A DNA stretch of 64,000 nucleotides from an uncultured marine group I thaumarchaeote (lineage in GTDB: Archaea; Thermoproteota; Nitrososphaeria; Nitrososphaerales; Nitrosopumilaceae): positions 1-64,000 of the forward strand of contig CABXQD010000001.1 of NCBI GenBank assembly GCA_902514275.1, read 5' to 3'. The notes beneath the pieces were generated by a model. That model worked only from the letters and a program-made list of their open reading frames with translations, ran no database searches and was not told where the DNA came from. The position numbers and the translations under genes are program-made. Shown here piece by piece: positions 27,994-37,120 of the stretch. How positions within the stretch are numbered: the stretch's first letter is position 1; the number at the start of each line of letters is the position of its first letter.

Positions 27994-29442
27994 ATGAAAA
28001 AAGAGTTATCCTTTGTACTAAATTATGCATTAAACAAAGGGTTCCAAATTCATCCAGATGCATTCAAAATTCTAGATGATATTACTGATGTTAAACAATT
28101 AGAAAAAATTATCAAAGAAATTGTTAAAGAAAAGACAAGACAAAAAAAATTCCAAATCAATCAAAATGATTTAGAAACCTATCTTGGAATAAAAGATGAT
28201 CCTAATCTTTTAAATGAAATAAAAATTTTATCAGATCCCACTAGTAAAGTTACATCAGGGGAGGGGGTTAAAGGGTATAATTCTCTGTTTTCTAGTCGTT
28301 TTAACAAATTAAAACGAATTATTTCTGATAGACCTGAATCAAAGATGATAAAATCCATATCAGTTGTTAAAACAACAAAATTAGAAAATGATGTGTATGT
28401 TTGTGGGTTAGTCACCACACGTAATGCTGAAAGAAATATCACAAAATTAGTGTTAGAAGACCCTTCAGGCTCATTTGAAGGTATTATTTTTGATGAGGAG
28501 TTGCAAAAAACTGCTGGAACTCTATTAATTGATCAATTTGTTATGGCACGAGTTGCTTCAGCCAAAAACTCAGGATTAATGATTAAAGATTTAATTTCGC
28601 CGGATATCCCTGATCAGAAAATTAACAAATCAGAAAGTGAAGTATATGCTGTATTTTTATCTGATTTGCATATTGGAAGTAAATACTTCATGGAAGAGGA
28701 ATTAATTGAATTTGTAAATTGGATATCTAGTCCTGATCCTGTAGCAAGAAAAGTTCGTTTTGTCTTAATTGGTGGAGATATTGTTGATGGTGTTGGAATA
28801 TACCCTAATCAAAATAAAGAGTTAGTTTGTCAAACAATTGAAGAACAATTACAAAAAGCAGAAGATTTACTAGATAAAATTCCAAAAAATGTAAAAATTA
28901 TCATTATGCCTGGAAACCATGATCCAGGAAGAAGAGCCTTACCTCAACCTGCAATTCCACAAAAATACAATTCAGGTTTATGGGAAAGAGAAAATGTTGA
29001 AATGGTTGGAAATCCTGCTCTAATTTCATTAAATGGAGTTAAAGTATTGATGTTTCATGGTCAAAGTATAGATGATATTGTGAAAACTACGCCTGGATTA
29101 AGTTATGATAGACCTACAGATGTAATGAAAAATCTTCTAAGAGCCAGACATCTAAGTCCAGTTTATGGTAGTTCAACACCAATAGCACCAGAAGTAGAAG
29201 ATCTTTTGGTAATTGAAAATATTCCAGATATTTTTCATGTAGGACATGTGCATAAAGCTCAATTAGATATGTACAAAGGAATTTTGTTAGTTAATTCAGG
29301 TTCATGGCAAAAACAAACACCTTTTCAAGCAAGTGTTGGAATGGTCCCAAATCCAGGTCTTGCCATAATTGTTAATCTAAAAACTTTTCAAGTATTTCAT
29401 GAAAATTACAGTTCAAACTCAAATAATGTCTTGCAAAGTTAA
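27994..29442 (+). CDS. polB: DNA polymerase D small subunit DP1
   Basis: A 482-residue exonuclease subunit of the archaeal replicative polymerase D. The N-terminal helical region is followed by an OB-fold (about 120-205) and a calcineurin-like phosphoesterase domain with LSDLHIGSKYF, GGDIVDGVGIYPNQ, MPGNHDPGRRALPQP, FHGQSIDDIV and VGHVHKAQ. These give the complete metal site for Mre11-like 3'-5' proofreading. It converges on cdc6 and overlaps it by 24 bp. The large subunit DP2 is about 4 kb away, across the predicted origin. Confidence 0.96.
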   Translation: MKKELSFVLNYALNKGFQIHPDAFKILDDITDVKQLEKIIKEIVKEKTRQKKFQINQNDLETYLGIKDDPNLLNEIKILSDPTSKVTSGEGVKGYNSLFSSRFNKLKRIISDRPESKMIKSISVVKTTKLENDVYVCGLVTTRNAERNITKLVLEDPSGSFEGIIFDEELQKTAGTLLIDQFVMARVASAKNSGLMIKDLISPDIPDQKINKSESEVYAVFLSDLHIGSKYFMEEELIEFVNWISSPDPVARKVRFVLIGGDIVDGVGIYPNQNKELVCQTIEEQLQKAEDLLDKIPKNVKIIIMPGNHDPGRRALPQPAIPQKYNSGLWERENVEMVGNPALISLNGVKVLMFHGQSIDDIVKTTPGLSYDRPTDVMKNLLRARHLSPVYGSSTPIAPEVEDLLVIENIPDIFHVGHVHKAQLDMYKGILLVNSGSWQKQTPFQASVGMVPNPGLAIIVNLKTFQVFHENYSSNSNNVLQS

Positions 29443-30621
29443 TTCATCTTTGAAAGATTTTTTTATCATTTCGGAGGAAATTGTTAATTTGTATTTTTTT
29501 GTTCTTCCATGAATTCCTTGATGAATTAGTCTTCCAGAAATAATTCCAGATAGTTCAATTTCACTCAACATTTGTGTAATTCGTCTTTGAGTTAATTCGT
29601 CTTTTCCAACTGTTTTACAGAGATTTTTGTAAGAAGAATAAATCTCACCAGTAGAAGAACCATTAGCCTTCATTATGGCTAAAAGTACAAGTTTTTCATG
29701 TAATGGGTATGATTTGAGAGAGGCTTCCTCTTTATTTTCTTCAATTTTCAAAGAGGCTTCTCTGACATGTTCAATTGTAACTTTATCAGATTGTTGTCTT
29801 TCAGCTAATTCTCCTGCTACTCGAAGTAAGTCTATAGCTCTTCTGGCATCCCCATGTTCTCCTCCAGCAAGTGCAGCACAGAGATTCAACGCAGGATCTT
29901 CTATAGCATTTTCAATAAAAGATTCATTGATTCTTTCTTCTAGGATTTTCTTGATTTGTTCAACATTATAGTTTGTAAATACAATTTCTTCTTCACCTAG
30001 ACTACTAATTACTCGAGGATCAAGTTTTTCTTTGAATGTTAAATCATTGGAAATTCCTACCATAGTTAAAGATCCAACTTCTAGTTGTTCATTTGCTCTT
30101 GTTAATTGATATAGAATATCTTTACCAGTTTTTACGACTAATTGGGCAAGATAGTCAATTTCATCTATAACAAAAACGGCATTGAGTTTTTCTTCTCTAA
30201 TTCTATTTAGTAATCTTTTGAAGACTTCGCTAATTGCAAGTCCAGTTGTAGGTAATTCCTTTTCATTTAGGCCTAATTGCCTGCCTAAACTGACTAATAA
30301 TCCGTATAATGTTGTCTCATTTTTAGAATTTGAATATACTAATTTGATTGGGAAATTTGATTTCTCTACCCTTTCTTGGATTTTAGATAATACCTTCTTT
30401 ACAACTAAAGTTTTACCAGTTCCTGGTTTTCCATATACTAGTAAATTAGATGGACGGGATTGTTTTAAAATTGGTAATAGTGATTGGGTTACCTGTTCTT
30501 GTTCAGAATCTCTATGAAGTATAATATTTGGAATGTATGTAAAATGAAGAATTTCTCGATTTTTAATAATAGATTTTCCAGATTCTGCTGCATCAAGCAT
30601 TCTATCAATTGGATCAGACAT
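29419..30621 (-). CDS. cdc6: Origin recognition/initiator protein Orc1/Cdc6
   Basis: A 400-residue AAA+ initiator. Walker A GKPGTGKT is at 64-71 and Walker B VFVIDEIDYL near 149-158. Sensor and arginine residues fall in GISNDLTFKEKLDPRV, and a C-terminal winged helix (about 300-400) ends in GRTKKYKL. This protein binds ORB sites and loads the MCM helicase. Two ORB-like repeats lie 250-330 bp upstream of its start in the adjacent intergenic region, the usual arrangement of an archaeal origin. The 3' end overlaps DP1 by 24 bp. Confidence 0.97.
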   Translation of the reverse strand: MSDPIDRMLDAAESGKSIIKNREILHFTYIPNIILHRDSEQEQVTQSLLPILKQSRPSNLLVYGKPGTGKTLVVKKVLSKIQERVEKSNFPIKLVYSNSKNETTLYGLLVSLGRQLGLNEKELPTTGLAISEVFKRLLNRIREEKLNAVFVIDEIDYLAQLVVKTGKDILYQLTRANEQLEVGSLTMVGISNDLTFKEKLDPRVISSLGEEEIVFTNYNVEQIKKILEERINESFIENAIEDPALNLCAALAGGEHGDARRAIDLLRVAGELAERQQSDKVTIEHVREASLKIEENKEEASLKSYPLHEKLVLLAIMKANGSSTGEIYSSYKNLCKTVGKDELTQRRITQMLSEIELSGIISGRLIHQGIHGRTKKYKLTISSEMIKKSFKDELTLQDII

Positions 30622-30869
30622 ACTCAGACACCTTCATTTCCTACCAATTTCAACATACACATCTTATAATTATGAGAGTATAGAATACAATAGTAATTCT
30701 AGTTTAGTTTGTAATTAATTATTTTTAGTTAGTTTTAGATTTTCAAAAAAAATAATTTTAAAAAAGATGGAGTGGAAATATTGGTGTGTGAGGTCTTTGT
30801 ATTGAAAGAAAAAAATGTTAACATATTGTTAATTTTATGTGAAGAAAAACAAAAAAAACCTCATTTTAA

Positions 30870-30891
30870 CCCCTTTATTTCCAATCCAGGC
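30870..30891 (-). repeat. ORB-like origin recognition box 1
   Basis: Read on the minus strand, this 22-bp element has the core CCTGGATTGGAAATAAAGGG, matching the archaeal ORB layout: an imperfect TCCA/TGGA dyad, GGAAA, then a G-string. It differs from the second copy at one position in the dyad centre. Orc1/Cdc6 binding is inferred. Confidence 0.75.
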
Positions 30892-30930
30892 GTTAAGAAA
30901 CTCATTAACATTGTTAATATCTCAAAATTA

Positions 30931-30952
30931 CCCCTTTATTTCCACTCCAGGC
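30931..30952 (-). repeat. ORB-like origin recognition box 2
   Basis: The second 22-bp copy, 61 bp from the first and in the same orientation. The minus-strand core is CCTGGAGTGGAAATAAAGGG, closer to the published ORB core (CAGTGGAAA followed by a G-string). A separate run of seven G follows about 20 bp to the right. Confidence 0.78.
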
Positions 30953-31037
30953 ACAACTATCTTATGTTTAAGGGGGGGTAGATTAGAAATTAAGTGTTAA
31001 TAACAGAAAATATGTTAGGCATGGGCTAGGCAGTCAA

Positions 31038-31091
31038 TGTTAACAAACTATAATGTTAACAAAACTGATCAGATCAATTCAACCGTTAACA
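31038..31091. promoter_or_regulatory. Cluster of TGTTAACA palindromes
   Basis: TGTTAACA occurs at 31038-31045 and 31054-31061, with CGTTAACA at 31084-31091; a further TGTTAACA lies at 30816-30823 on the far side of the ORBs. TTAGATCT follows twice at 31092-31108. The three close copies lie 23-76 bp before the ATG at 31114, where an operator for that gene or an initiator site would sit. Confidence 0.5.
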
Positions 31092-31113
31092 TTAGATCTG
31101 TTAGATCTCAAAG

Positions 31114-31503
31114 ATGACAAAAAAACGTATACGAATAGATATGGAGGATGCAGACGGGGCCCGTTATGATATTAAATTAGAAGGGAACGTGACCAGAGAC
31201 AAAGTCCTCAAAATTTTCGAAATGATGGATTTGATGAATATTGAAGAGGAAGAAGAACAATCCATCAAAATGGATTCTGTAGGCTCAAAAATTTGGCATA
31301 TTGTAGATAAATTCTTCCCTATGGGCAAATTTACTTCTACAAACATTCTTGAAAAATATGAAGATGAATTCAACGAACCTGTAAAACTTAGTGTTATTTC
31401 GACATATTTGTCAAGATTTGCCTCAAAAGGTAGGGTAGAAAGAGTTAGAACCGGTAGGGAATGGACTTATCAATCCATCAAAATTACTCAAAAACAACAA
31501 TAA
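31114..31503 (+). CDS. Origin-adjacent protein with predicted winged-helix C-terminus
   Basis: A 129-residue protein. The N-terminal 45 residues form a beta-rich segment (RIRIDMEDADGARYDIKLEG) followed by an acidic linker (IEEEEEQ). From about 55 to 125 a helical region ends with LSVISTYLSRFASKGRVERV and RTGREWTYQSIKI, the recognition helix and wing of a winged-helix domain. I do not recognise a named family. Its location next to the predicted origin and downstream of repeated palindromes suggests DNA binding, perhaps autoregulation or a role at the origin. Confidence 0.75.
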   Translation: MTKKRIRIDMEDADGARYDIKLEGNVTRDKVLKIFEMMDLMNIEEEEEQSIKMDSVGSKIWHIVDKFFPMGKFTSTNILEKYEDEFNEPVKLSVISTYLSRFASKGRVERVRTGREWTYQSIKITQKQQ

Positions 31504-31507
31504 TTGA

Positions 31508-31669
31508 TTAAACAATAGTCACTTTTCTAACTATCAATCTATCTTTTCCAAGAATCATTTTTACATATTCTCCTTTTTGTACATCCATAAATTTTCTAAA
31601 TTGTTTTGGGATTGAAATAGTACCTGCAGATGTTATTTTTACTAATACTTCATTTTCTTGTACTGACAT
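31508..31669 (-). CDS. AbrB/SpoVT-type DNA-binding microprotein
   Basis: A 53-codon frame from the ATG at 31669 to TAA. The protein begins MSVQENEVLVKITSAGTISI, then PKQFRKFMDVQKGEYVKMIL and GKDRLIVRKVTIV. The pattern V-x-I-T-S-A-G-T-I-S-I-P-K-Q-x-R-K and KGEYVKM is the swapped-hairpin AbrB fold, the size of an antitoxin-like or transition-state regulator. It converges on the gene at 31114 with a 4-bp gap. No toxin gene follows it, so a regulator is more likely than an antitoxin. Confidence 0.8.
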   Translation of the reverse strand: MSVQENEVLVKITSAGTISIPKQFRKFMDVQKGEYVKMILGKDRLIVRKVTIV

Positions 31670-31802
31670 AATATTATTGTAATTTAATAATATATATAAT
31701 TTAATGTTTTATTATATTAATAATTAAATAGAATTTATGAAGATTTTAGACCATAATTTACTAATTTACAAAAAATTAACTCTAAATATTTTTTATAATA
31801 AT

Positions 31803-32405
31803 CTATACAACCGTTGGATTAGAAATAATATCTTCAACTTTAGATTTACCTTTTTCAGTAATTGAATATGTGTATGGTTTTGTTTCTGTATTTCTTTGAA
31901 CTAAACCATTTTCAAATAATTTTTTCATTAATCTAGAAGTATGCTCTCTACTACGTTTTGTTGTGATTTGTATGTCACGTGATGTCATAGCTTTGTTTGT
32001 GATTAGATGCAACACATAGTCAGTTGGGCTCACATGTTCAATATTTGGAATTTTAGGCACAAAAACAGGCTTTTCAACTATAATTTCAGGCTCTTTAATC
32101 ACTTCAACTTCTTTTATAGACTCTTGATTTTCTACTAATCCTTGTACAAATTGTTTCAATTCTAGGTTAGGATCAACAGGCTTTTCATCAATTCCTTGAA
32201 TTTCTAATGCATCCAGGCGTATTTTCATATCAATTAACTGTCTTTCATAATACTCTAAACGCTCTGTTTGGGTAGGATCATCAATATCACTACTGGATTT
32301 TATGAATGGACGTACTTTGAAGAATAGATACAAACCACCCAAACCTATCAAAAATGCTAAAATCACACCTAAAATCACTTCAGGATCAGGAATTTCTACT
32401 AACAT
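31803..32405 (-). CDS. Membrane-anchored winged-helix protein
   Basis: A 200-residue protein from the ATG at 32405 (a GTG at 32408 is also in frame). An N-terminal membrane helix (VILGVILAFLIGLGGLYLFF) is followed by a coiled-coil or linker region with Pro/Glu-rich stretches (KEPEIIVEKPVFVPKIP). The C-terminal domain of about 70 residues reads TSRDIQITTKRSREHTSRLM then KKLFENGLVQRNTETKPYTY, a MarR-like winged helix. A membrane-bound DNA-binding protein could sense a surface signal or anchor DNA. A dense TCACA array lies just upstream. Confidence 0.78.
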   Translation of the reverse strand: MLVEIPDPEVILGVILAFLIGLGGLYLFFKVRPFIKSSSDIDDPTQTERLEYYERQLIDMKIRLDALEIQGIDEKPVDPNLELKQFVQGLVENQESIKEVEVIKEPEIIVEKPVFVPKIPNIEHVSPTDYVLHLITNKAMTSRDIQITTKRSREHTSRLMKKLFENGLVQRNTETKPYTYSITEKGKSKVEDIISNPTVV

Positions 32406-32673
32406 CACAATTTCTATGCCTATGTTGTGATTTATTGTGATTGACCAATATTATTTCACACTTTAGATTAACAATCTCACACTAACAATCACAATCTCAC
32501 AATGGTAATCACAATCTACCATTTATTGTAATAATCACACTAATCACACCAATTACATATTTGATGCCTGTCTGATGAGCTTCTCTATCACACTAATCAC
32601 TTCATCTTCTCTTTCAGGAAAGATATCACTATCATTAATCACACTAATTTGTTCAGAAAGTTTGGATATCACA
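32405..32673. repeat. Array of TCACA/TGTGA words
   Basis: Within 269 bp the pentamer TCACA occurs about eleven times and its complement TGTGA twice. Ten of these are concentrated in the intergenic part up to 32548, often as AATCACAC or AATCACAAT spaced by 8-12 bp. The array runs into the 3' end of the upstream gene. The spacing is too irregular for CRISPR. It may be a multi-site regulator-binding region for the gene that starts at 32405. Confidence 0.55.
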
Positions 32674-33742: not shown

Positions 33743-36700
33743 ATGTCTGAAAACGACGCAATTTCTAGAATTCGTGATATTGAAATGCCAGAATATTACT
33801 TAGATTACTATTCAAATCTCTCAACTGAAACATATTCTATATTTGAGCATGCAGCAGCAGCAAAATCAACTTTAGTTGATTCTTCAGGCATAATTGAGCC
33901 TAAAATCGCATTTGATTTAGCCGATCGAGTTGCAAAAATGCACGAAATTGATATTGCGGATCCATTAAGAGAAATTTTAAAAATTAATGGAAAAGAACTT
34001 TCTGCATTAATTTTAGCCAAAGACATTGCTTTAGGAAAATATTCCTTACCCGATGCTACAATCGAAGAAAAATTGGATCTTGCAGTTCGTGTAGGATTAG
34101 CAATAATTACTGAAGGTGTTACAATTGCACCTCTACAAGGAATTAGTGAAGTAAAAATTAAGAAAAACAAAGATGGAACTGATTATCTATCAGTTTCAAT
34201 TGCTGGACCTATGCGTTCTGCAGGAGGCACAGAATCTGCAGTTACTCTACTAATTGCAGATCATGTTAGAAAAATTGCAGGATTATCTAAATTTCAAGCA
34301 AATTCTTTTGATGATGAAACAGGCAGATTTGTTGAAGAATTACGAATTTATGAAAGGGAAGCTAGTAGCTTTCAATTTCATATTTTGGATGAAGATATTG
34401 AACATGTGATTTCAAATCTTCCAGTTGAACTGGCTGGTGTAGATACTGATCCATATGAGGTTGTAAATCATAAAGGAATGACTAGAATTCAAACTGATAG
34501 AGTTAGAGGAGGAGCTTTACGTGTTCTTAATGATGGTTTGATTGGAAGATCAAAAAAACTCCTCAAAAGAATAGAAATGTACAATTTAGATGGTTGGGAA
34601 TGGCTTGGTGACCTTAAAGGTGCAGTTCAAACAGGTGATAATCAAGAAGATGCTGCAGCAAAAAGAATGCGTGAGGTAATTACAGGCAGATCTGTATTAT
34701 CTATGCCTAACAAATTAGGTGGATTTAGGCTTAGATATGGAAGAGCATGTAATACTGGATTTGCAGCAGTAGGATTTCACCCTGTTGTTGCTGAAATCTT
34801 AGATCATACTATAGCAGTTGGAACACAAGTCAAATGTGATCTTCCTGGAAAAGGTGCAACTGTAGCATTTGTTGATAGTATTGAAACACCAACTGTACGT
34901 CTTCTTAATGGAGATGTTGTAAAAATTAGAGATGTTAAACATGGGATAGAAATTAAAAATAAAATAGAAAAAATTCTCCACCTTGGAGATATTTTAATCA
35001 CGTTTGGAGATTTTCTTGAAAACAATGCTCAACTAATTCCTTCAGGATATGTTGAAGAGATTTGGATAGAAGAATTAAAACAAATAATTTCAAAATCTGA
35101 GCCTAAAAATCAATATTTAGAACAATTTTTGACTAAATTACCTTCAGTTGAGGAAGCATTAAAAATCTCAATTGATTTTCATTTTTCATTACATCCACAC
35201 TATCTATATTATTGGGATCAGATATCATCAGAAAATTTATTTTTACTTTTACAACCAAAAAATTTCAACGAAAATAAAATTGAATATCCAATTGAAATTA
35301 AAAAAATTCTAGAAAAATTAGGAACTCCACATAAAATTGTAAATCAATCTATTATTTTAGAAAATGACGAAGCAAAAATTTTCTTTAATTTATTATTTAT
35401 AACAAAACCAATAATCAATGAATTATCAATTCCTGAAATTTTAACAAATTCATCAAAAATTAAAATTAATAATAAATTTTCTACTTCAATTGGAGTTCGA
35501 ATTGGAAGACCTGAAAAAGCAGCTCCTAGACAAATGAAGCCTCCTACACATGTACTATTTCCAATTTCTGATAAAGGTGGACCAACAAGAGATCTTCTTA
35601 AAGCATCACGAAATGAGCACTTTTTTGCAAATATTTACAATAGACATTGTTCACAATGTAATGAACCGTCTATTGGGATTAATTGTTCTAATTGTGGTGA
35701 AAAAACAACAATTTCTTTTAGATGTAATAATTGTAGAGATACATTAACAGAACCATTTTGTGAAAAATGTAAGAGAAAAGCTCCTGCACATTCTCATAAA
35801 GAATTTCCACTAAAATCACGATTACTTTTAGCTCAAGAAAAGATGGGTATTCGTGCGAAAGAACCTTTCAAAGGTCTCAAAGAATTAATCAGTCAAGACA
35901 AAATTGCAGAACCTCTTGAAAAGGGACTTGTACGTCAAAATCTAGGCTTAACTACATTCAAAGATGGAACTATTCGATTTGATGCAACAAATTCTCCTTT
36001 AACTCAATTCAAACCATCATGGATTGGAACTTCAATTGAAAAATTAAAGGAATTGGGTTATTCTCATGATGTTGATGGAAAACCATTAGAAAATACAGAT
36101 CAAATAATTGAACTAAGAATGCAAGATGTAGTAATTCCCAATGAAAGTGGAAGATATCTGGTTTCAACTTGTAAATACATTGATACACTTTTGATGAAAT
36201 TTTATGGCAAATCTTCATTTTATAATGTTAAAAATACTGAAGAACTAATTGGTCATTTGATTATTGGTTTAGCACCTCATACTTCTGTTGGAATCGTAGG
36301 TAGAATTATTGGATATACTGAAACTCATGTTTGTTTTGGTACACCTAATTGGCATTCAGCAAAAAGACGTGATGCTGATGGTGATGCTGATTCTATTATG
36401 TTGTTGATGGATAGTCTACTTAATTTCTCACGACAATTCCTTTCTGATAGAATTGGAGGTTTAATGGATGCTCCATTACTTGTTCAACCTCTTGTTTTAC
36501 CACACGAATCTCAACCCCAGGCACATAATCTTGAAGTAACAAAAATTCTTCCTCTAGAATTTTTTGAATCGACAGTTCAACAAAGTAAAGCGTCTGATGT
36601 AACTTCAGTTGAAATTATTAAATCACGATTAGAAACAGAAAGGCAATTTTATGATTATCATTGTACTCATTTAACTTCATCACTAACAACTTCCAAATCT

Positions 36701-37120
36701 CGAAGTGCATATTCTACATTAGGTTCTATGCTTGACAAATTTGATATGCAAGTTAGAAATGCTGAATTAATTGATGTAGTTAATCCATCTGAACTTGTTT
36801 CAAATGTAATTTCAACACATCTTGTTCCAGATATTATGGGAAATCTTAGAGCATATGCAAGACAAAGTTTTAGATGCACTGCTTGTGGAAAGTCATATCG
36901 TCGAATGCCTTTAATTCAAACTTGTGTATGTGGACATAAACTAATTGCAACAATTACTAGAGGTTCTGTTGAAAAATATCTAAAACTTGCAAAAAGACTC
37001 GTTGACAAATATGATGTTGGGGAATATCAACGTGGAAGAATTCATGCTCTATCTGATGAAATTGAATTAGTTTTTGGTAAAAGTCAGGGAGATCAATCAC
37101 TCCTTACAGATTATGCGTAA
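33743..37120 (+). CDS. polC: DNA polymerase D large subunit DP2
   Basis: A 1125-residue catalytic subunit of polymerase D. The catalytic aspartates lie in RRDADGDADSIMLLMDSLL with DADGDAD at 877-883. A zinc module is seen near 635-675 (CSQCNEPSIGINCSNCGEK, CNNCRDT, CEKCKRK) and a second near 1047-1070 (CTACGKSYRRMP, CVCGHKL). The N-terminal KH-like and barrel regions are intact, and there is no intein. The short spacing to GGGP synthase suggests co-transcription. DP1 and Cdc6 lie about 4-6 kb upstream, across the predicted origin. Confidence 0.97.
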   Translation: MSENDAISRIRDIEMPEYYLDYYSNLSTETYSIFEHAAAAKSTLVDSSGIIEPKIAFDLADRVAKMHEIDIADPLREILKINGKELSALILAKDIALGKYSLPDATIEEKLDLAVRVGLAIITEGVTIAPLQGISEVKIKKNKDGTDYLSVSIAGPMRSAGGTESAVTLLIADHVRKIAGLSKFQANSFDDETGRFVEELRIYEREASSFQFHILDEDIEHVISNLPVELAGVDTDPYEVVNHKGMTRIQTDRVRGGALRVLNDGLIGRSKKLLKRIEMYNLDGWEWLGDLKGAVQTGDNQEDAAAKRMREVITGRSVLSMPNKLGGFRLRYGRACNTGFAAVGFHPVVAEILDHTIAVGTQVKCDLPGKGATVAFVDSIETPTVRLLNGDVVKIRDVKHGIEIKNKIEKILHLGDILITFGDFLENNAQLIPSGYVEEIWIEELKQIISKSEPKNQYLEQFLTKLPSVEEALKISIDFHFSLHPHYLYYWDQISSENLFLLLQPKNFNENKIEYPIEIKKILEKLGTPHKIVNQSIILENDEAKIFFNLLFITKPIINELSIPEILTNSSKIKINNKFSTSIGVRIGRPEKAAPRQMKPPTHVLFPISDKGGPTRDLLKASRNEHFFANIYNRHCSQCNEPSIGINCSNCGEKTTISFRCNNCRDTLTEPFCEKCKRKAPAHSHKEFPLKSRLLLAQEKMGIRAKEPFKGLKELISQDKIAEPLEKGLVRQNLGLTTFKDGTIRFDATNSPLTQFKPSWIGTSIEKLKELGYSHDVDGKPLENTDQIIELRMQDVVIPNESGRYLVSTCKYIDTLLMKFYGKSSFYNVKNTEELIGHLIIGLAPHTSVGIVGRIIGYTETHVCFGTPNWHSAKRRDADGDADSIMLLMDSLLNFSRQFLSDRIGGLMDAPLLVQPLVLPHESQPQAHNLEVTKILPLEFFESTVQQSKASDVTSVEIIKSRLETERQFYDYHCTHLTSSLTTSKSRSAYSTLGSMLDKFDMQVRNAELIDVVNPSELVSNVISTHLVPDIMGNLRAYARQSFRCTACGKSYRRMPLIQTCVCGHKLIATITRGSVEKYLKLAKRLVDKYDVGEYQRGRIHALSDEIELVFGKSQGDQSLLTDYA

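Follow-up and report, generated by a model that had tools for sequence, protein, structure and literature searches.

The intergenic gap at positions 30622-31113 of the window, as we call the whole 64,000-nucleotide stretch analysed here from an uncultured marine group I thaumarchaeote, raises the question of whether it is the replication origin of the chromosome and, if so, which of its elements take part in initiation. The gap (492 b, AT fraction 0.715) lies between cdc6, coding for the Orc1/Cdc6 initiator, and a divergent gene for a winged helix-turn-helix (wHTH) protein. The window's own assembly is a Nitrosopumilus-type draft genome of 882,880 b in 50 contigs, 63% complete. We conclude that the gap is almost certainly the chromosomal replication origin of this ammonia-oxidising, Nitrosopumilus-type archaeon. 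Besides origin recognition boxes (ORBs), it contains an array of TGTTAA/TTAACA hexamers, which is very probably a functional element of the origin. The best explanation as a whole, an origin with Cdc6 on the ORBs and a TGTTAA array read by the wHTH protein, has in our estimate a probability of about 0.8. The origin alone adds a member to a known kind; new here are the second element and its candidate reader.

The cdc6 gene (29419-30621, minus strand, 400 aa) was identified by the Pfam domains Cdc6_lid (5e-25), Cdc6_C (1e-20) and AAA and by TIGR02928 above its cut-off. It is the single cdc6 match in the assembly, which is 63% complete. The initial annotation of the window placed the gap directly upstream of cdc6 and saw no credible gene in it, and both statements were borne out: the longest open reading frame overlapping the gap has 69 aa, a GTG start and no Pfam match. 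Two 22-bp repeats in one orientation had also been described. They are present at 30931-30952 (ORB1) and 30870-30891 (ORB2), both on the minus strand. A 19-b ORB core was written from the window's own repeats, and its best three matches in the gap had 0 mismatches (30931-30949), 1 mismatch (30870-30888) and 3 mismatches (30768-30786, plus strand). The zero-mismatch match is so by construction, because the core was written from these repeats. The matches lie far beyond those in 1000 first-order Markov shuffles of the gap, where the best single match had 4 mismatches and the lowest third-best had 6. The third match, ORB3, is inverted relative to ORB1 and ORB2 and had been overlooked, so the earlier count of two was right for those two but incomplete. 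Across the 882,880-b assembly, the core at up to 3 mismatches was found three times here and once elsewhere (3 mismatches); the backward control gave 0 matches.

The layout was then compared in relatives. The set comprised 80 loci, from which L079 was left out (its contig ends 154 b upstream), giving 79 Nitrosopumilus-type loci. ORB2 and its pairing with ORB1 were found in 79/79, at a spacing of 61 bp (33 loci) or 62 bp (46 loci). With up to 5 mismatches allowed, the inverted ORB3 was present in 74 of the 79; in these loci, as in the window, ORB2 and ORB3 form an inverted pair around an AT-rich region. At the wider scale of the class, 12 of 19 families examined, the window's among them, have one or more genomes with two cores 59-64 bp apart. 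The f5 locus L156 (G118) has its cores 44 bp apart and carries 17 TGTTAA hexamers, the highest count. A further ORB-like core on the minus strand at 30629-30647, by the cdc6 start, is a candidate mini-ORB. A similar core was found by pattern in 43/79 relatives, and its GAAA and GGTGT columns are conserved at 95% or more; it overlaps the position of the ribosome-binding site and could also be a ribosome-binding region.

The match to the canonical ORB layout claimed in the initial annotation stands for the GGAAA core and the G-string but not for the dyad, in which the half TCCA is replaced by TGGA. The window's ORBs read TGGA(G/T)TGGAAA. The dyad claim is only partly right because most other families of the class have the canonical TCCA before TGGAAA, while the other members of the window's family examined have T(G/A)GA at this position. 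A co-change of ORB and Cdc6 was considered for this TCCA to TGGA replacement, and the Cdc6 positions that are fixed in the window's family and differ outside it were listed; it is one event and proves nothing. The run of seven G was found where it had been reported (30972-30978, plus strand), but we rejected it as an origin element and judge it to lie outside the conserved origin. It is not conserved in the alignment of relatives, and a G/C run of at least 6 within 60 b before ORB1 occurs in only 3/79 of them.

Because the window's assembly consists of 50 contigs, base-composition skew was measured in three relatives, G072 and G050 (both complete genomes) and G001. For G072 and G050 we took 20 stretches of 20 kb at sampling steps of 68 and 82 kb, respectively, and for G001 40 stretches at 42-kb sampling. 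The T/A skew was taken at third codon positions and averaged over the genes of both strands, which corrects for gene strand. The corrected T/A skew changes sign between the chromosome arms and is extreme at the origin, with 0.261 in G072 and 0.176 in G050 and 0/4000 permutations in each, a test that assumes exchangeable stretches, an assumption that neighbours do not fully satisfy. In G001 the best T/A split fell at 510 kb (p 0.0006), and the ORBs lie at 498 kb. In G050 the corrected GC skew at third positions (GC3) switches at the origin as the T/A skew does. Separately, the T/A skew of G001 (OX638319.1; L086-L125) reverses sign at two more places, near 1.62 Mb and near 0.24 Mb, a pattern that an inverted or misassembled segment of the left arm, or a second origin carried by it, could produce.

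Several measurements weigh against the origin. Plain GC skew is weak or flat at the locus (G050 p 0.26, G001 p 0.62, G072 p 0.04). For the corrected GC3 skew, G072 gave no significant result (p 0.74), and the signs in G050 and G001 are opposite. Co-orientation of genes with replication was seen in G050 only (p 0.02), not in G001 or G072. The GC-skew check suggested in the initial annotation came out poorly in these relatives, and corrected T/A skew came out in favour of the locus in all three genomes. In Nitrosopumilus-type genomes, as far as the three sampled ones show, plain GC skew marks the origin poorly and corrected T/A skew marks it well.

These GC values speak for a different reading, in which the ORBs merely autoregulate cdc6 and replication begins elsewhere. 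Under it, the GC skew taken alone, flat in G001 and not significant in G050, would be as expected, but the change of strand composition at the locus, seen in two complete relatives, would not. Moreover, no second pair of ORB cores at up to 3 mismatches was found in the six genomes searched, where single cores with 2-3 mismatches occur in G001, G002 and G004, and a single origin has been mapped in Nitrosopumilus maritimus according to the accessible parts of PMC4010727. We regard this reading as highly improbable. That the gap is the chromosomal origin, as the initial annotation proposed, is supported by the ORB layout, the adjacency of cdc6, the composition switch in relatives and the N. maritimus origin, mapped as a single one in what could be consulted of PMC4010727 and PMC5797428 (the study is that of Pelve et al. 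2013, as cited in PMC4010727). The T/A switch and this single mapped origin are the reasons why we hold, with high probability, that the origin is real.

The densest feature of the gap is the TGTTAA/TTAACA array, which the earlier inventory of gap elements had overlooked. It comprises 11 hexamers at 8 separate places, 4 of which have the full palindrome GTTAAC. The means in Markov shuffles were 1.06 for the hexamers and 0.20 for GTTAAC, and 0/5000 shuffles reached the observed count of either. One cluster lies midway between ORB2 and ORB3 (30816-30832), a position equivalent to that of the ucm motif in Sulfolobus. TTAACA and TGTTAA sites occupy 30905-30917 between ORB1 and ORB2. The outer array (span 30995-31091) has sites at 30995-31000, 31038-31045, 31054-31061 and 31085-31091. 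In relatives, GTTAAC recurs at offsets from ORB1 of about -139, -109, -93, +41 and +128, the first three of which concern the outer array. A full GTTAAC at +40 or +41 was present in 64/79 relatives (20 and 44, respectively); the window itself is without it.

Over the 79 loci, 39.5 kb of origin contain 334 GTTAAC and 1.065 Mb of flanks contain 90, an enrichment of about 100-fold. All 74 loci that have ORB3 carry sites in the ORB2-ORB3 interval, with the centroid at 0.53 +/- 0.05 of the interval; because the relatives are close kin, this is conservation and not 74 events. Outside the origin, an 800-kb sample of G001 had 103 single GTTAAC sites and no cluster of at least 3 sites in 250 b; the flanks of the 79 loci yielded a single cluster of this kind. 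Pairs occur elsewhere, beside unrelated genes where examined, so single GTTAAC sites are not specific to the origin; the dense array is. Among the matches listed for pairs outside the origin, 12 stretches were taken, and ten proteins from five of them were run against Pfam. Beside the pairs were genes for ribosomal protein L3, a radical-SAM/BATS protein, a hemerythrin-domain protein near a RibD-type gene, amoA (with the sites inside it) and one unmatched gene. No replication gene stood beside the sites examined, and a replication regulon marked by GTTAAC pairs is not supported. Of 14 genomes, 12 had fewer matches to the pair pattern than to its backward control, G138 had as many, and G073 had more (9 vs 1). 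The peculiarity of the origin is therefore the density of GTTAAC and not the pairs as such.

Three observations on sites elsewhere are reported for their own sake. In G050 a GTTAAC pair 14 b apart lies in the amoA reading frame near its start (L187, L192; G050, G072); the spacing is equal and the sequence nearly identical in several genomes, possibly through codon conservation alone. A palindrome of the GTTAACC...GGTTAAC type precedes the radical-SAM/BATS gene at G050:C1:726349-726377 (L190), with similar ones in G058, G064, G065 and G067, and we take it to resemble a biotin-repressor operator. At G065:C1:6576-7133 there is a 24-b tandem repeat with GTTAAC, probably within coding sequence.

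The array extends over the class in two variants. TGTTAA is the most enriched hexamer in families f1, f2, f3, f5 and f18 and the fourth in f20. TGTGAA(C) takes its place in f4, f11 and f17 and, more weakly, in f6. In f7 and f10 neither hexamer is among the top twelve; TGTGAA is above expectation there nonetheless. The position of the array relative to the two genes bears on the most serious competing explanation, according to which the origin is real but the array consists of operators, and the wHTH protein acts at the two divergent promoters, that of cdc6 and that of its own gene, as an ordinary repressor that tunes the level of the initiator and takes no direct part at the origin. The location of the array between two divergent genes would suit this, as would the most frequent Pfam match among members of the wHTH family, to the BlaI/MecI repressors (Penicillinase_R, 11/20 members). 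Genomes in which the wHTH gene is not beside cdc6 tell otherwise. We found 10 of them: four in f2.g22 with the gene about 3 kb away (G073, G083, G086, G170) and six in f3 with the gene on other contigs (G088, G191, G196, G201, G208, G238). They have 3-16 TGTTAA hexamers upstream of cdc6 and 0-5 upstream of the wHTH gene, where the 5 is that of G196, the upstream region of cdc6 in G238 is only 114 b and that of the wHTH gene in G073 only 140 b. The cdc6 upstream region thus retains the array when the wHTH gene has moved.

In 8 other genomes the two genes lie on the same strand. Here, 4-8 hexamers of both types occur in the 700 b upstream of the wHTH gene and 0-1 in the gap between it and cdc6, which speaks against the operator explanation. 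ORB matches are likewise upstream of the wHTH gene in 5/8 of these genomes (G175, G284, G277, G275, G047), and no ORB match was found there in G202, G276 and G018. An ORB-like core remains by cdc6 in G018, G275 and G284, which counts against our explanation. The sites in the middle of the ORB2-ORB3 interval in 74/74 loci are a further point that operators leave unaccounted for. The array is not merely the wHTH promoter, because it stays with the cdc6/ORB region when the wHTH gene lies apart, and it belongs with the ORBs by this linkage. We consider the pure operator explanation unlikely; the array may still regulate cdc6.

The candidate reader of the array is the product of the divergent gene (31114-31503, plus strand, 129 aa). 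Its Pfam match to Penicillinase_R (PF03965) is weak (E 8.4e-4, 20.1 bits, below the gathering cut-off of 22.6), and 11 of 20 members of the wHTH family match this family at E <=0.01, more than match any other. The AlphaFold2 model (predicted local distance difference test 78.9, predicted template-modelling score 0.53) has a predicted recognition helix at residues 92-104 and an extra N-terminal strand-helix part. Foldseek with this model gave no match at E 0.001 or better, the best being BlaI (E 5e-3), and the VIA structure search placed Fur-type proteins first, followed by other winged helices. Searches with the predicted structure give nothing more specific than a winged-helix fold, which counts against our explanation.

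The gene is divergent to cdc6 in 76/76 relatives in which both genes are complete (4/80 lack one). A match was found in 260 of 300 genomes of the class and in 197 of the 213 more complete ones, mostly as a single copy. For 27 more distant or complete origins, picked from genomes that had a match, the gene was divergent in 24 and on the same strand in 3. A profile of 20 diverse members matched 184 of 300 genomes of the phylum, 50 of them within the class. Twenty loci outside the class were analysed, all chosen for having a wHTH match. In 12 of them the gene is divergent to cdc6, with gaps of 485-808 b; the other 8 have no cdc6 match in 2-3 kb on either side of the wHTH gene, a point against our explanation.

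A conserved, mostly single-copy DNA-binding gene next to many spaced palindromic sites at an origin also brings to mind a centromere-like (parS-type) site, with the wHTH protein as the centromere-binding half of a segregation system. AspA and the pNOB8 centromere-binding protein are indeed among the weak fold matches, but they score no better than dozens of unrelated winged helices. No ParA/SegA-type partner was present among ten Pfam-scanned neighbours, a count that involved no genome-wide search for one, and a centromere gives no reason for a site midway between ORBs. This explanation appears quite unlikely to us.

Residue 94 of the wHTH protein, a valine in the window, is the third residue of the predicted recognition helix 92-104. 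It is V, I, L, M or A in 53/54 genomes in which TGTTAA prevails and Thr in 28/29 in which TGTGAA prevails, so that the motif variant tracks it in 81/83 genomes. The region scored for the motif was the 700 b upstream of the wHTH gene plus the gap in same-strand genomes, and the region upstream of cdc6 where the wHTH gene lies apart. The 83 rows exclude G202, in which the helix was not identified, G255, whose main cdc6 could not be located, G039, whose gap is too short, and G105, G271 and G292, which gave no wHTH residue; for G195 and G007, residue 94 was assigned by visual inspection. When each of 48 genera was represented by a single row, the leave-one-out score of residue 94 was 0.938, against 0.854 for the next of the wHTH columns tested and a baseline of 0.646. 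The best of 317 Cdc6 columns tested reached 0.870, below residue 94. The wing residues 115 and 116 were also among the top four wHTH columns. Outside the class, this rule holds in 9 of the 11 loci where both residue and motif could be read. The cdc6-wHTH arrangement seems older than the class, because it is divergent in 12/20 loci outside it and the residue rule agrees in these 9/11.

Relatedness limits what this covariation can carry, and a number of results go against it. In the Cdc6 tree of 76 rows (7 rows had no usable Cdc6), residue 94 needs 5 changes and the motif 3; the events are few, with only about three independent switches. The independent-pairs test found 3 supported pairs, one with the motif changing in the same direction and two in which it does not differ, and with this number a value of 0.05 is out of reach. 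The Mann-Whitney p of 2e-13 for motif versus residue 94 ignores relatedness and is not to stand alone. Within the class, G032 (Thr, TGTTAA) and G284 (Val, mixed) are discordant, and five agreeing rows have a margin below 0.5 (G109, G009, G099, G278, G018). Outside it, G306 (Ala, TGTGAA) and G491 (Thr, S 0.05) are discordant, and G343 agrees only at -0.22. The covariation of residue 94 and motif in the aligned sequences is a strong lead and no proof. It suggests that the wHTH protein is the binder of the TGTTAA array, which we hold to be somewhat favoured.

In the mechanism that we propose, Orc1/Cdc6 from the adjacent gene would bind three ORBs, perhaps four. ORB2 and ORB3 face one another over about 83 bp and would load a pair of MCM helicases that point towards one another. 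Opening would take place in the AT-rich stretch that separates ORB3 from cdc6. A candidate for the unwinding region is the least stable 100 bp of the gap (30664-30763); by nearest-neighbour stability, 0.66% of windows across the 64 kb are less stable. Within it, the alignment of relatives has a conserved AT-rich block at about 30699-30740. The second element would be the array of TGT(T/G)AA half-sites, which spans the entire origin and has one of its clusters halfway between the convergent ORBs. The wHTH protein, perhaps as a dimer, would bind the array, and a protein at the midway motif would touch both helicases. Its role could resemble that of the Sulfolobus protein UBP on ucm, as a spacer or release factor between helicases, or it could serve origin architecture. 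By analogy with UBP the helicase-spacer role is conceivable, and we think it doubtful. More broadly, Nitrososphaeria and related classes of Thermoproteota may have two-protein origins, in which, besides Orc1/Cdc6 on ORBs, an ancient wHTH protein encoded divergently on the other side of the origin sits between convergent ORBs and is needed for firing, its specificity having switched between T and G through joint changes of residue 94 and the sites; we would give this an even chance. The locus offers a testable candidate that consists of a motif, a protein and a specificity residue and comes with a natural swap of both, and it gives precise sites for replicating vectors in ammonia-oxidising archaea.

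The wider neighbourhood fits the initial annotation in that both subunits of DNA polymerase D flank the locus. The small subunit DP1 (27994-29442, plus strand; Pfam DNA_pol_E_B 9e-24) is on the far side of cdc6, which separates it from the gap. The large subunit DP2 (33743-37120, plus strand; PolC_DP2 domains) is about 2.6 kb from the gap and 2.2 kb from the wHTH gene, with several genes between. Between the wHTH gene and a second winged-helix gene (31803-32408, HTH_27) lies a gene for a 53-aa MazE-type DNA-binding protein (31508-31669, minus strand; PF04014, 1.6e-7). The least stable 100 bp of the 64-kb window (31668-31767) are found before this 53-aa gene, about 600 bp outside the gap. Linkage of cdc6, oriC and DP1 is already known in euryarchaea, as stated in the accessible part of PMC2643942.

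Among known systems, the BlaI/MecI/CopY repressors (PF03965) resemble the wHTH protein in their recognition helix, which aligns with it; PDB chain 2k4b (E 0.0097), which carries the annotation of a transcriptional regulator, shows Thr where the wHTH protein has residue 94. The wHTH protein differs from them in falling below the Pfam cut-off, in its extra N-terminal strand-helix part and in its location at an origin. Haloarchaeal oriC1 also has ORBs beside cdc6 and an extra enhancer element. According to the sections of PMC4010727 at hand, the elements at its ORBs are G-rich, whereas the one here is separate and rich in A/T, and the G7 run lacks conservation. The origin of N. maritimus is the nearest in lineage and is, in the same sections, a single mapped one; neither the TGTTAA array nor the wHTH protein was found mentioned in them, and neither was found named in open-licence papers. 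In the relative G050, the ORB pair, the array and the divergent wHTH gene are present at the contig ends.

The closest likeness in design is to Sulfolobus oriC1. As described in the available portion of PMC12141716, inverted ORB2 and ORB3 guide a pair of MCM hexamers onto the intervening DNA, and UBP is proposed to sit on ucm midway, touching both hexamers. UBP is saddle-shaped with beta-hairpins, binds the 11-bp ucm as a monomer and has more than 300 genomic sites; it also binds the N-terminal domains of MCM. Both origins have an inverted ORB pair around an AT-rich region with a second conserved motif midway. A dedicated DNA-binding protein has, by that account, been demonstrated for Sulfolobus in the form of UBP and is only proposed here for the wHTH protein. 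The folds differ, that of UBP as described there and a winged helix in our candidate, and the site here is a TGT(T/G)AA half-site in many copies. The 800-kb sample of G001 with its 103 single GTTAAC had no clusters elsewhere, and single sites may be bound as well. If the proposal is true, the wHTH protein with TGT(T/G)AA would be a counterpart of UBP with ucm by unrelated descent.
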